Source: Cypionkella aquatica
Lineage (GTDB): Bacteria > Pseudomonadota > Alphaproteobacteria > Rhodobacterales > Rhodobacteraceae
Reading direction: 5' to 3'
DNA: 64,000 nt
Assembly: GCF_030161095.1 (NCBI RefSeq)
Contig: NZ_BSPP01000021.1
Location: 1-64,000, forward strand
The notes beneath the pieces are model-generated. The model was given only the letters and a program-made list of their open reading frames with translations, made no database searches and was not told the DNA's origin. Positions 12,060-27,095 of this stretch are shown piece after piece; position 1 is the first letter of the stretch; each line of letters opens with the position of its first letter. The position numbers were made by a program, and so were the translations under genes.

Positions 12060-14009
12060 CTAAACCGAAACCTCGGATTCCGAAGGCTCGGTTGGCAGTT
12101 CGATCGGCAATTCACCGGTGGTCTCATAGCTTTCGCGCATCCCCGACGGCAGCAGGGTTTCAAACGCCGGTTTGCCAAGGATCTCGGCAAATTTCACGAT
12201 CAGCTTTTGCTCGACCTTGGTCGACAGCTCTCGCGCCCGCGCCACATAAGCGGGGTTTTCAAAATTCGGGATGTTGGGATCGTAATGTTCAGCCATCGCC
12301 CGCATGATCTTCTGATCGGCCTCGTGATAGACCTGCCGCATCGCCTCGGCCTGTTCCGGCGTCGCCCCCAAAGCCTGAAACGCCGAGCGGCCCATGCGGA
12401 TCGAGCTGTCATAGGTTTCGCGGATAATATCGCGGCAACCAGCGGCCCAAAGGTCGTAGACATGGTTGCGATCCACCGCCCGCGCGATCACATGCAGGTT
12501 CGGATGGGCGGCCACCACATGCTGCACCATCTCGGTGATCTGGTCGCGATCATCAATCGCGATCACCAACAGCTTGGCCTCGGCAATGCCTGCTGAATGA
12601 AGCATATCGGGCCGGGTGGCATCGCCGAAATATGCCTTCACACCAAATTTTGCCATCATCTCGAGCTGCTTGCTGCTAAAGTCGATCACTGTGGTGTGAT
12701 AACCCGCTGCCCGCAGCATTCGGTTGACCAAGCCGCCGACGCGGCCTGCGCCCGCGATGATGATATGGCTGGGATCGGTGATTTCATCCGCCTCGCGCTG
12801 CATGGTTTCGGCAAAACGCGGCGCAATCACCCGGTCGTAAAAGATGAACAGACCCGGCGTCAGCAGCATCGACAAAGCCACCACCAACAGCATCTTGTCG
12901 GCAATCTCGGGCGGCAAAACCGCCGAGCTGACCATAAGCGAGATCAGCACAAAGCCGAACTCACCCGCCTGCGCAAGCGCCAGCCCGAACAGCCATTTGT
13001 CCGCCGCAGCCAAGCGAAACACCCGACCCAGCACCAGCAACACCGCCACCTTCACCACGATCAGCCCAACCACCAAAGCCGCGATCTGGCCCAGATTGTC
13101 CCACAGCAGCGCAAAATTCACCCCTGCACCGACGGTCATGAAGAACAGCCCCAACAGCAGCGCCTTGAACGGGTCAATATCGGATTCCAGCTCGTGACGG
13201 TATTCGCTGTTGGCCAAAACCACCCCCGCCAAAAACGTGCCCAAGGCGGGCGACAGCCCCACCAAAGTCATCAGCAACGCAATGCCGATCACCATCATCA
13301 GCGCGGTCGCGGTGAACAATTCATGCAATTGCGCCGAAGCCACAAAGCGGAACACCGGGCGGGTCAGATAGTTGCCGCCCAACACCACGCCAATGATCGC
13401 GGCGATATTGACCAGCGCCACCTGCCAGCTGGCCAGACCCGCCACCAGACTGAAGCCCACCTCGTGATCGGTGACGCTATGGCCGCCCTGCAATTCGGGC
13501 AAAGCCAGCAGCGGGATCAGGGCCAGCATCGGGATCACCGCAATATCCTGCGTCAGCAGCACCGCGAAACTGGCTTGGCCCGCATCGCTTTTCATCAGGC
13601 CCTTTTCGCCCAAAGTCTGCAAAACGATGGCGGTCGAGGACATCGCCAGCACCAGACCCACCGCCAAAGCCACCGACCAGCCCAAGCCCAACCCCATACC
13701 GACGCCCATCACCGCCGCCACCGTCAGCACAACCTGCCCGCCGCCCAAGCCCAAAAGCCGCGTGCGCATCGCCCAGAGGTTTTTCGGCTCCAGCTCCAAC
13801 CCGACCAGAAACAGCATCATCACCACGCCGAATTCGGCAAAGTGCTGGATCGACACCACATCAACCTGCAGCACCGCCAGAACCGGGCTGATCACGATGC
13901 CCGCGATCAGATAACCCAGCACCGAGCCCAAGCCCAGCCGGGCGGCAATCGGCACGGCAACCACCCCCGCAACAAGGAACAAAAACGCCAACAGCAAAAC
14001 ATCGGTCAT
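12060..14009 (-). CDS. Kef-type K+/H+ antiporter (CPA2 family)
   Basis: A 649-residue protein with two parts. Residues 1-380 form a Na+/H+ exchanger membrane domain of 12 or so segments. Residues about 400-520 form a cytoplasmic TrkA-N Rossmann domain, with IIAGAGRVGGLVNRML as its nucleotide-binding loop. A C-terminal extension of about 110 residues follows. KefB/KefC proteins release K+ and acidify the cytoplasm in response to glutathione adducts. Start MTDVLLLAFLF at 14009 matches the family; an ATG eight codons upstream also exists. The palindrome array at 14250-14362 lies upstream, in its promoter region. Confidence 0.9.
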   Translation of the reverse strand: MTDVLLLAFLFLVAGVVAVPIAARLGLGSVLGYLIAGIVISPVLAVLQVDVVSIQHFAEFGVVMMLFLVGLELEPKNLWAMRTRLLGLGGGQVVLTVAAVMGVGMGLGLGWSVALAVGLVLAMSSTAIVLQTLGEKGLMKSDAGQASFAVLLTQDIAVIPMLALIPLLALPELQGGHSVTDHEVGFSLVAGLASWQVALVNIAAIIGVVLGGNYLTRPVFRFVASAQLHELFTATALMMVIGIALLMTLVGLSPALGTFLAGVVLANSEYRHELESDIDPFKALLLGLFFMTVGAGVNFALLWDNLGQIAALVVGLIVVKVAVLLVLGRVFRLAAADKWLFGLALAQAGEFGFVLISLMVSSAVLPPEIADKMLLVVALSMLLTPGLFIFYDRVIAPRFAETMQREADEITDPSHIIIAGAGRVGGLVNRMLRAAGYHTTVIDFSSKQLEMMAKFGVKAYFGDATRPDMLHSAGIAEAKLLVIAIDDRDQITEMVQHVVAAHPNLHVIARAVDRNHVYDLWAAGCRDIIRETYDSSIRMGRSAFQALGATPEQAEAMRQVYHEADQKIMRAMAEHYDPNIPNFENPAYVARARELSTKVEQKLIVKFAEILGKPAFETLLPSGMRESYETTGELPIELPTEPSESEVSV

Positions 14010-14249: not shown

Positions 14250-14362
14250 GTCCCCGCGGGGACAAAACGATTTGCGTGTGCTGTCCCCGCGGGGACAACC
14301 CTAACTGTATGCGGTGTCCCCGCGGGGACAAAACTGTCTGCCGTCAGCGTCCCAGCGGGGAC
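14250..14362. repeat. Four palindromes at exact 33-bp spacing
   Basis: GTCCCCGCGGGGAC occurs at 14250-14263, 14283-14296 and 14316-14329. GTCCCAGCGGGGAC, with one base changed, occurs at 14349-14362. Starts are spaced 33, 33 and 33 bases. The 19-base spacers differ, but all begin AA. The 14-bp unit is a perfect palindrome and is usually followed by AAA. The array lies in the 392-base gap between the Kef gene start and the dehydratase stop. It is too short-period for CRISPR. Equal spacing near three helical turns suggests cooperative binding of a dimeric protein; the protein is unknown. Confidence 0.85.
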
Positions 14363-14395
14363 AAAGTTATATAGGATGTGGTTTGAAGAAATTCC

Positions 14396-14418
14396 CCCGC
14401 AATATATAGCATTGCGGG
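14396..14418 (-). terminator. Hairpin after the enolase-superfamily gene
   Basis: An 8-bp stem (14396-14403 with 14411-14418) with loop ATATAGC lies just after the minus-strand dehydratase stop. Read on the minus strand it is followed by GGGAATTTCTTC. This is a weak T-run, so termination is probable but not certain. Confidence 0.5.
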
Positions 14419-14425
14419 AGTTTTC

Positions 14426-15667
14426 TTAAACCGAGGTCGGCGCGGGCGCGCCACCTTCAAAGCGGTTGCCGTGGCGATAATCGCAGGGCGCTTCCTGCAT
14501 CTGCAGATGCAAAGCGGTGCCGGTGTAGGGATGCGCGCGGGCGACATCCTCGTCAAACTCAATCCCCAAGCCGGGTGCCGTCGGCGGCAGGATATAGCCA
14601 TCCTCCCACTTCAGGCTGTTCTTGATCAGCTTCAGATGGAAGTCGCCGCCGGTCTGGATGGTTTCGGCCATCAGAATGTTCGGGATCGACACCGCAAAAT
14701 GCACATTCGCCGCCCATTCCACCGGGCCTGCATAAAGATGCGGCGCCATCTCGGCATTATAGACCTCGGCCATCGCTGCGATCTTCTTGGCCTCCCAGAT
14801 GCCACCGACACGGCCCAAGGCAGGTTGCAAAATCTTCACCCCGCCATGACGCAAAAGCGCACCGAACTCGGCTTTCGTGGTCAACCGCTCACCCGTCGCA
14901 AGCGGCACCCGGACAGAGCGCGCCACTTCGGCAAATTCGGCAAGGTTGTCTGGCGGGATGGGCTCTTCATACCACAGCGGGTTATAGGGCTCGATCGCCA
15001 CCCCCAGCCGGATCGCGCCGGGCGTGGTGAACTGGCCATGCGTGCCGAACAAAAGATCAGCCTTGTCGCCGACCGCCTCGCGGATTTTCTTGCAGAATTC
15101 AACCGAGCGCGAGATATCCGACATCGCAGGCTCATGCCCGCCGCGAATGGTGTAGGGGCCGGCAGGGTCGAATTTCACAGCGGTAAAGCCTTGGCTGACG
15201 CAGCGCGCCGCAGCCTCGGCGGCCATATCCGGGTTCACCCAGAAATCGGCCGGAATCTCACCCGCTTCGGGATAAAGATAGGTATACGAGCGCACCTTTT
15301 CATTCATCATCCCGCCGAGCAAAGCCCAAACCGGGCGGTCGCGGGCCTTGCCAAGAATATCCCAGCAGGCAATTTCCAGCCCGGAAAACGCGCCCATCAC
15401 GGTGGGATCGGGGCGCTGCGTGAAGCCCGCAGAATAGGCGCGGCGATACATCAGCTCGATATTCTCGGGGTTTTCGCCCAGCATATGGCGCTCGAACACA
15501 TCATGGATGACAGCATCCATCGCGCGGGGGCCAACGGTCGAGGCATAGCACTCGCCATAGCCGACGATGCCGTTATCTGTCGTCAGTTTCACGAATGTCC
15601 AATAGCGCCCGCCCCAACCCGGAGCAGGTGGTGCGACGGTGAAAATCTCAAGATCGCGCAGCTTCAT
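14426..15667 (-). CDS. Mandelate racemase/muconate lactonizing enzyme family protein (sugar-acid dehydratase-like)
   Basis: A 413-residue enolase-superfamily enzyme. The N-terminal capping domain covers about residues 1-130 and the barrel the rest. Visible landmarks are K165-F-D167, WYEEP (E234/E235), TGE260 and H310 in APHLYAG. It resembles galactonate or gluconate dehydratases. Two expected positions differ. The third-strand Asp ligand appears as G208 in FGTHGQ, and the QPD motif reads QPALG. The QPD change can matter for catalysis, so the exact reaction is uncertain. It lies upstream of no obvious sugar operon. Confidence 0.78.
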   Translation of the reverse strand: MKLRDLEIFTVAPPAPGWGGRYWTFVKLTTDNGIVGYGECYASTVGPRAMDAVIHDVFERHMLGENPENIELMYRRAYSAGFTQRPDPTVMGAFSGLEIACWDILGKARDRPVWALLGGMMNEKVRSYTYLYPEAGEIPADFWVNPDMAAEAAARCVSQGFTAVKFDPAGPYTIRGGHEPAMSDISRSVEFCKKIREAVGDKADLLFGTHGQFTTPGAIRLGVAIEPYNPLWYEEPIPPDNLAEFAEVARSVRVPLATGERLTTKAEFGALLRHGGVKILQPALGRVGGIWEAKKIAAMAEVYNAEMAPHLYAGPVEWAANVHFAVSIPNILMAETIQTGGDFHLKLIKNSLKWEDGYILPPTAPGLGIEFDEDVARAHPYTGTALHLQMQEAPCDYRHGNRFEGGAPAPTSV

Positions 15668-26980: not shown

Positions 26981-26994
26981 GTCCCAGCGGGGAC
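26981..26994. repeat. Single GTCCC-GGGAC palindrome upstream of purC
   Basis: GTCCCAGCGGGGAC is identical to the fourth unit of the 14250-14362 array. Here it is alone, flanked by CT and AGA. It lies about 140 bases upstream of the purC start. A related palindrome is at 58637. Confidence 0.6.
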
Positions 26995-27095
26995 AGACTT
27001 GTGTTTTTGCGTCGATTTTGTCAGATAAACCACAATATGTTGTGGTTTTTACCCTGCAAGACCGGTGCGGATGGTTTCATACCCCCAGCGCGGGG

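Follow-up and report, generated by a model that had tools for sequence, protein, structure and literature searches.

Putative loading sites of an orphan plasmid-type ParB upstream of a Kef-type antiporter gene and across the genome of Cypionkella aquatica

For Noc of Bacillus subtilis about 70 dispersed palindromic sites are reported (PMC4331003). Residue 173 (R173/Q173) was described to govern the outermost position of parS/NBS in Caulobacter ParB and Noc (PMC7383237). In Caulobacter the fitness cost of additional chromosomal parS copies varies with their position (PMC5815017), which bears on where such sites may lie. Orphan ParBs were reported to be widespread (PMC12704722), and group-specific palindromes were described as partition anchors for the RepABC plasmids of Rhodobacterales (PMC9426580, PMC3910554). 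Furthermore, parS-like copies of SGI1 are reported to act on IncC plasmids (PMC10954446).

The window, i.e. the whole stretch of 64,000 nucleotides of C. aquatica that was analysed, contains an array of a 14-bp palindrome (P1) between two genes of the minus strand:

12060..14009, minus strand: gene of a Kef-type cation/proton antiporter (Na_H_Exchanger and TrkA_N), 649 aa from the likely start, 5' end facing the array
14250..14263, no strand assigned: P1 unit 1, GTCCCCGCGGGGAC, putative ParB-type site
14283..14296, no strand assigned: P1 unit 2, exact GTCCCCGCGGGGAC
14316..14329, no strand assigned: P1 unit 3, exact GTCCCCGCGGGGAC
14349..14362, no strand assigned: P1 unit 4, GTCCCAGCGGGGAC, one change compared with GTCCCCGCGGGGAC
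14394..14420, minus strand: terminator-like hairpin of the intrinsic type between the racemase stop and the array, consensus match only
14426..15667, minus strand: mandelate racemase/enolase-superfamily gene, 413 aa, 3' end facing the array

The initial annotation of four 14-bp palindromes was confirmed in all details: the units start at 14250, 14283, 14316 and 14349, exactly 33 bp apart, three are identical, the fourth has one change and the 19-nt spacers differ. The variant of unit 4 recurs genome-wide (pattern GTCCCMGCKGGGAC). The array had also been placed in the promoter region of the Kef gene. Relative to the likely Kef start (14009, minus strand; 14033 in the ORF list) it does lie upstream, but 241-353 bp away, 63 nt past the stop (14426) of the upstream minus-strand racemase gene and behind the terminator-like hairpin at 14394-14420. 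The scan for this terminator-like consensus found two such sites compared with a mean of 1.1 in shuffles. An Rfam scan gave four matches, all far from the gathering score, and a known Rfam RNA was rejected as identity of the array.

In the whole genome of C. aquatica (G000) 41 exact copies of GTCCCCGCGGGGAC and 78 with at most one mismatch were counted, and the reversed pattern gave none. Thus, the motif occurs genome-wide far beyond chance. The pattern GTCCCMGCKGGGAC (GT-sites) was found 94 times (control 0) and GTCCCNNNNGGGAC 99 times (reversed control 3). With up to three mismatches the window alone contains eight copies against a chance mean of 7.8, which is no excess; the signal is in the copies with no or one mismatch and in the whole genome, not in loose matches within the window. 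The sites are spread over many contigs, chromosomal as judged from the contig sizes of the draft genomes. Identical called genes and sites on two contigs each (L107/L115 on C1/C6 and L119/L124 on C7/C14) suggest duplicate assembly pieces. The site total includes the few copies in these apparent duplicates (C6 like C1, C14 like C7), and L115 and L124 were dropped from the mapping of gap placement and gap sharing.

Mapping of spacing and gap sharing covered part of the sites of C. aquatica (42 clusters) and of the relative G247 (18 clusters) and all 28 clusters of the relative G404. In C. aquatica 26 of the 42 clusters are single units. The rest are arrays whose spacings vary between 23 and 111 bp, and a phasing of 10.5 bp was not seen (Rayleigh p ~0.4), so that binding on one face of the DNA, for which the constant period had been taken as a sign, is not supported and a helical-phase array was rejected. 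When the orphan parB locus described below was left out, 39 of 40 clusters were intergenic and one was at the edge of a stretch; one of 20 G247 clusters is inside a called gene. Based on the calls of a simple codon-usage caller, convergent flanking genes were found for 25 of 39 site gaps compared with 23 of 162 other gaps of the same loci. The corresponding values were 13/19 and 10/65 for G247 and 18/27 and 8/77 for G404. Divergent site gaps are few (2/39, 0/19 and 3/27, respectively, orphan parB locus left out). Clusters in convergent and tandem gaps lie at a median of 63 (C. aquatica), 37 (G247) and 39 nt (G404) past a stop codon. In the p-values genomes and sites count as independent, although this is only partly true. 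A Kef-specific operator was rejected, the motif being genome-wide and commoner in convergent gaps. A whole-genome scan for the 14-mer had been suggested as a check, with drifting spacing and a scatter unrelated to promoters named as evidence against the initial reading; both were largely found.

The identity of the 14-mer was examined in 394 genomes of the family. Exact copies occur in 41 of them, nine with a single copy. In all 11 clustered loci fetched first, copies of the 14-mer surround a parA-parB pair at a distance of a few kb at most and frequently fall within it. The scanned proteins of these pairs match the ParA and ParB/RepB families, partly below the curated cut-offs. Most ParA-linked loci also encode, divergently beside parA-parB, a protein of some 230 aa whose relative has a DnaA_N domain. 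This gene order is that of the Rhodobacteraceae DnaA-like plasmids (PMC9025767). Named examples are Roseobacter litoralis pRLO149_94, with the 14-mer around its parA-parB pair, and Phaeobacter inhibens pP88_a. Since in relatives the sites surround parA-parB of DnaA-like plasmids, the 14-mer is likely the parS of these ParABS systems. No description of the sites was found in the open PMC literature; Petersen 2011 on DnaA-like plasmids, the likeliest source for the plasmid palindromes, is outside that scope.

Related ParBs pair with TTCCC..GGGAA or TTACC..GGTAA sites. At E <=1e-45, a cut-off chosen afterwards, a ParB of the same family was detected in all 32 family genomes with at least two exact copies. 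In total 95 of the 394 searched genomes were positive. The other 63 have fewer than two exact copies, and their typed members carry other palindromes or few GT copies. For four of the nine single-copy genomes no ParB of the same family was detected at E 1e-10.

Several further observations were made at the plasmid loci. Copies of parS are located inside genes adjoining parAB (L095, L103, L183, L185, L188, L296). The parAB neighbours of pRLO149_94 are bchO, magnesium chelatase subunit D and bchI, and genes of similar size are found there in other loci. In Parasedimentitalea marina pW43D a second ParB-domain gene follows directly behind the parA-parB pair (L300:4043-4936). PLSDB tags the gene with the DnaA-N domain on a Gemmobacter aquarius plasmid (L299:280-963) as the efflux gene MexK, and this prediction of resistance is most likely wrong. 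Arrays of the 14-mer were also found in Actinobacteria (Brevibacterium, Antrihabitans, Acidimicrobiales; L024-L028, L030, L035, L048, L051, L054, L059, L065, L067, L078, L082, L084, L092, L094). Two Brevibacterium genomes and one Antrihabitans genome were counted and have 19-25 copies each, in arrays. The outer context in the inspected loci of both genera is mostly CGTCCCC..GGGGACG instead of T..A. No ParB was detected at E 1e-8 in the five actinobacterial genomes searched. These arrays were set aside as relatives and probably belong to an unrelated DNA-binding system.

A single close member of the ParB family is encoded in the genome of C. aquatica:

C19:7739-8719: orphan ParB, 326 aa, divergent from repA-repB of a RepABC operon

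Two further matches in this genome are 33-35% identical. The orphan shows 47% identity (4.8e-65) to a ParA-linked plasmid ParB, and its matches to ParB_N and parB_part are below the curated cut-offs. No cognate parA adjoins the gene at this locus; only the divergent RepABC RepA, about 32% identical to the ParA of DnaA-like plasmids, is present. Orthologues in the same place are 88% (G247) and 67% (G404) identical. In all three species a site occupies the gap that separates the divergent repA and orphan parB genes, and the parB genes of C. aquatica and G247 contain a further site inside. The sites are not clustered near the par locus but spread over many contigs of the C. aquatica genome. The three orphans of the genus are without the N-terminal RGPMAxAI region, also when read stop to stop; it is present in 28 of 29 aligned ParA-linked rows, and the start of the remaining row may have been trimmed. 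The CTP-clamp boxes GLSNPI, QGxRRxxA and DENxxR are all kept. The dN/dS of the orphans is 0.26-0.30, which indicates purifying selection.

The AlphaFold model of the orphan ParB reached a mean pLDDT of 76.0 and a pTM of 0.49. Its best Foldseek matches were Noc (top), ParB and KorB with TM-scores of 0.2-0.4 by query, and profile matches to Noc and Spo0J were found in the N-terminal domain. The N-terminus MS[IL]TRPF is conserved in the three genus orphans (residues 1-31 with pLDDT <50). It includes a proline, and a Noc-like membrane helix at this position is not clearly supported. A further ParB without parA within the 13 kb fetched was found in Actibacterium sp. 188UL27-1, a genome with 89 sites; the place of this ParB in the tree is uncertain due to a long branch.

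Close genomes were compared regarding the same Kef gap, as had been proposed initially. In G247 two intact units lie 66 bp apart, and by reading of the sequence a decayed unit seems to be placed at +33 between them. G404 has one unit with changed ends. The gap is shorter and without the composite element described below in G396 and G403, and both genomes are without a close orphan ParB. The annotation of the conserved palindromes as sites of a dimeric DNA-binding protein is supported, and close relatives have such sites in the corresponding gap.

The form of the sites differs between species together with the ParB. Among 15 genomes of the genus GT-sites were counted 94 times in G000, 64 times in G247, once in G404 and not in the other 12. 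TT-sites (TTCCC..GGGAA) occur 28 times in G404, twice each in G398 and G406 and once in G399, which has a ParA-linked ParB of the TT type; the rest including G000 and G247 have none. An orphan with at least 67% identity was found only in G000, G247 and G404, several of the other genus genomes being just 75-92% complete. Both flanking genes are common with C. aquatica clusters for 11 of 28 G404 clusters, including the Kef gap and the gap at 26981, compared with an expectation of about 0.3 on an assumed 3900 gaps. For G247 this applies to 11 of 18 clusters. In the gaps common with G404, the C. aquatica sites end in GT/AC and those of G404 in TT/AA, and the flanking DNA is 33-44% identical. Corresponding gaps therefore carry the GT-form in one species and the TT-form in the other. 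The identity inside P1 of the 11 common pairs is built in by the pattern search and was not taken as evidence, nor was the difference at position 1/14.

Residue 177 of the ParB was R in all 17 GT types, including those of C. aquatica, G247 and Actibacterium. The 10 TT types have P (8), A (1) or Y (1), with P in the G404 orphan, and all six TTACC types have Y. This table comprises 33 chosen ParBs of 87 typed loci, with some duplicates. Nine additional named plasmids, selected among the best 30 of 591 matching records, showed the pairing as well: GTCCC went with R (6/6), TTCCC with P or A (2/2) and TTACC with Y (1/1). Residue 177 is one of nine columns separating GT from TT types. The GT and TT orphans can also be told apart at residue 272, which is part of a linker modelled with low confidence. 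In the AlphaFold model residue 177 is the first residue of the recognition helix, and from this place it would be equivalent to R173 of Caulobacter ParB. In the tree the three orphans form one clade (100/100) among TT ParBs (90/73), with the two GT orphans nested (100/99) and G404 basal. Since the clade sits among TT ParBs with G404 at its base, the pairing of R with GT arose, most simply, anew within the orphan clade.

P1 is often part of a larger unit. The second P1 locus of the window comprises the following features:

26981..26994, no strand assigned: P1, GTCCCAGCGGGGAC, one change, between two minus-strand genes
26996..27008, plus strand: accessory element GACTTGTGTTTTT, adjoining P1
27030..27045, no strand assigned: second palindrome P2, CCACAATATGTTGTGG, 35 nt after P1

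A composite of about 65 bp recurs in the genomes of C. aquatica and G404 and consists of P1, ACTTGTGT (or a G end), about 25 nt and P2. Many sites of the genus belong to this larger element of P1, ACTTGTG and P2. P2 resembles CCACAACATGTTGTGG and often follows 35 nt after P1 (window 26981-27045; L236-L263, L277, L281, L285, L290, L292). The gap of G404 which matches the 26981 locus carries TTCCC..GGGAA. Several P1 sites centred on AGCT are followed by a stretch like AAAATTCTATAGGTTGTGG instead, and a P2-like, perhaps decayed stretch (CCACATCCTATATAAC, minus strand) adjoins unit 4 of the array at 14363-14390.

The recurring composite raises the question whether P1 is carried by a selfish dispersed repeat, REP- or MITE-like, with the likeness to parS incidental or a mere seed. 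REPs typically lie between genes, and there in convergent gaps, and the Kef gap without the element is shorter in G396 and G403. In contrast, the search for a RAYT gene (Y1_Tnp, Pfam PF01797 only) was empty in the genome of C. aquatica (0/1), with five of 14 control genomes positive, and a RAYT-driven REP was rejected. The accessory element was not enriched in Tateyamaria and the few Actibacterium loci examined. Furthermore, spread alone explains neither the mutual exclusion of GT and TT forms (no TT-site in C. aquatica, one GT-site in G404) despite 11 common gaps nor the tracking of the site form with ParB residue 177. Because the composite recurs, and because G396 and G403 have a short Kef gap without it, spread as a repeat was probably part of the history of the genus sites; that it accounts for the whole of this history is rather unlikely. 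Alternatively, the orphan ParB could act like KorB or VirB, with the sites as its operators, and repress or de-repress nearby genes including Kef. KorB structures among the Foldseek matches and the site in the divergent repA-parB gap of all three species are consistent with this. Nine Tateyamaria genomes contain 24-79 GT-sites each with ParBs that are ParA-linked in eight of nine loci, the ninth being near a contig end. The 36 mapped clusters are distributed inside genes (14, several near parAB), between genes (16) and at edges (6); based on our own gene calls, 10 of 11 in tandem or divergent gaps are at most 73 nt from a downstream start. Thus, dispersal needs no orphan ParB, and in Tateyamaria it may serve regulation. 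On large Tateyamaria contigs pairs of P1 24-34 bp apart with similar flanks were observed in several species, many of them close to a start by the same gene calls (L041, L053, L057, L058, L068, L075, L085, L091, L093). In the genus of C. aquatica, however, the mapped clusters are mostly in convergent gaps with few divergent ones, as given above, and the distance of the array from the Kef start behind the terminator-like hairpin of another gene also argues against regulation, which we regard as unlikely here.

Two more explanations were considered. Dispersed parS copies might anchor a plasmid on the chromosome or, through competition for the ParB of incoming DnaA-like plasmids, keep these out. 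The orphan parB adjoins a RepABC repA in three species, and copies resembling parS on SGI1 are reported to hijack and destabilise a plasmid (PMC10954446). Few copies would suffice for this, however, and about 100 copies which match the form of the resident orphan fit a resident protein better, so that such an interplay appears improbable. Hairpins at the RNA level, as terminators or 3'-end stabilisers, would agree with the very stable fold of the array as RNA (z -8.2) and with the position of the convergent- and tandem-gap clusters shortly past stop codons (medians of 63, 37 and 39 nt). Yet a separate terminator-like hairpin precedes the array, and a strict terminator role was rejected; in the sites inspected P1 is not consistently followed by a T-run, and sites are also found inside parA and other plasmid genes. 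The outer base pair tracks the recognition-helix residue of ParB, a match which RNA pairing does not need. An RNA function is therefore very improbable.

The regulator which was left unnamed by the initial annotation is most likely a plasmid-type ParB. The sites, the orphan gene, their co-variation and the shared gaps were computed directly. From these it is very likely that the orphan ParB binds the dispersed sites, and the array is probably a loading-site cluster for this ParB of the DnaA-like plasmid family, which would read about a hundred dispersed copies. We propose that the protein, apart from its parA and beside the repA of a RepABC operon, recognises each palindrome as a dimer via its helix-turn-helix, with residue 177 near the outermost base pair. 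Judged from fold and motifs, it would then close as a CTP clamp and slide onto the adjoining DNA, and several sites near one another would load more ParB. Sites may be kept where loading leaves promoters undisturbed. The use would most likely lie in marking or organising the chromosome in the manner of Noc and not in switching of the Kef gene; this Noc-like role is proposed as a tentative possibility.

Equally tentative is the idea of a second, independent Noc-like system in Rhodobacteraceae, in which a plasmid partition ParB turned into a chromosome-wide marker with a change from P to R at residue 177 and a genome-wide change of the outer base pair. If true, this would be a case from nature in which a DNA-binding protein and all of its sites changed their specificity in step. 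The likely target set of an orphan ParB, its dispersion and the matched difference in specificity of a sister species can be read from sequence. This makes it a tractable system for studying how a DNA-binding protein can alter its specificity and still keep tens of sites. It is also a candidate system for marking the chromosome in alphaproteobacteria, and one that is nearest to plasmid ParBs.

Four known systems can be compared. With REP/BIME-type dispersed palindromes the sites share intergenic, convergent placement, repeated palindromes and larger composite units; in contrast, no RAYT gene is found in C. aquatica and the end letters of the sites go with the ParB residue. KorB of RK2 and VirB of Shigella are gene regulators with a ParB fold and palindromic or parS-like sites, and KorB was a Foldseek match. 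Their sites serve promoters, whereas most mapped sites of C. aquatica are outside divergent promoter gaps. The ParABS systems of DnaA-like plasmids have the identical 14-bp site, the same ParB subfamily with kept CTP-box residues, and a site within parB plus another adjoining it. They differ in that the ParB of C. aquatica has no adjacent cognate ParA and no N-terminal RGPMAxAI region, and in that its sites are genome-wide and not clustered at one locus. Compared with Noc/NBS of B. subtilis, the orphan is alphaproteobacterial, close to plasmid ParBs and located beside plasmid genes, its sites are mostly in convergent gaps and no membrane helix is evident. Common to both are a ParB homologue with CTP boxes outside a parAB operon, tens of dispersed palindromic sites, predicted ones in C. 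aquatica, and a specificity set, presumably also in the orphan, by few helix-turn-helix residues, one of them acting at the outermost site position (PMC7383237).
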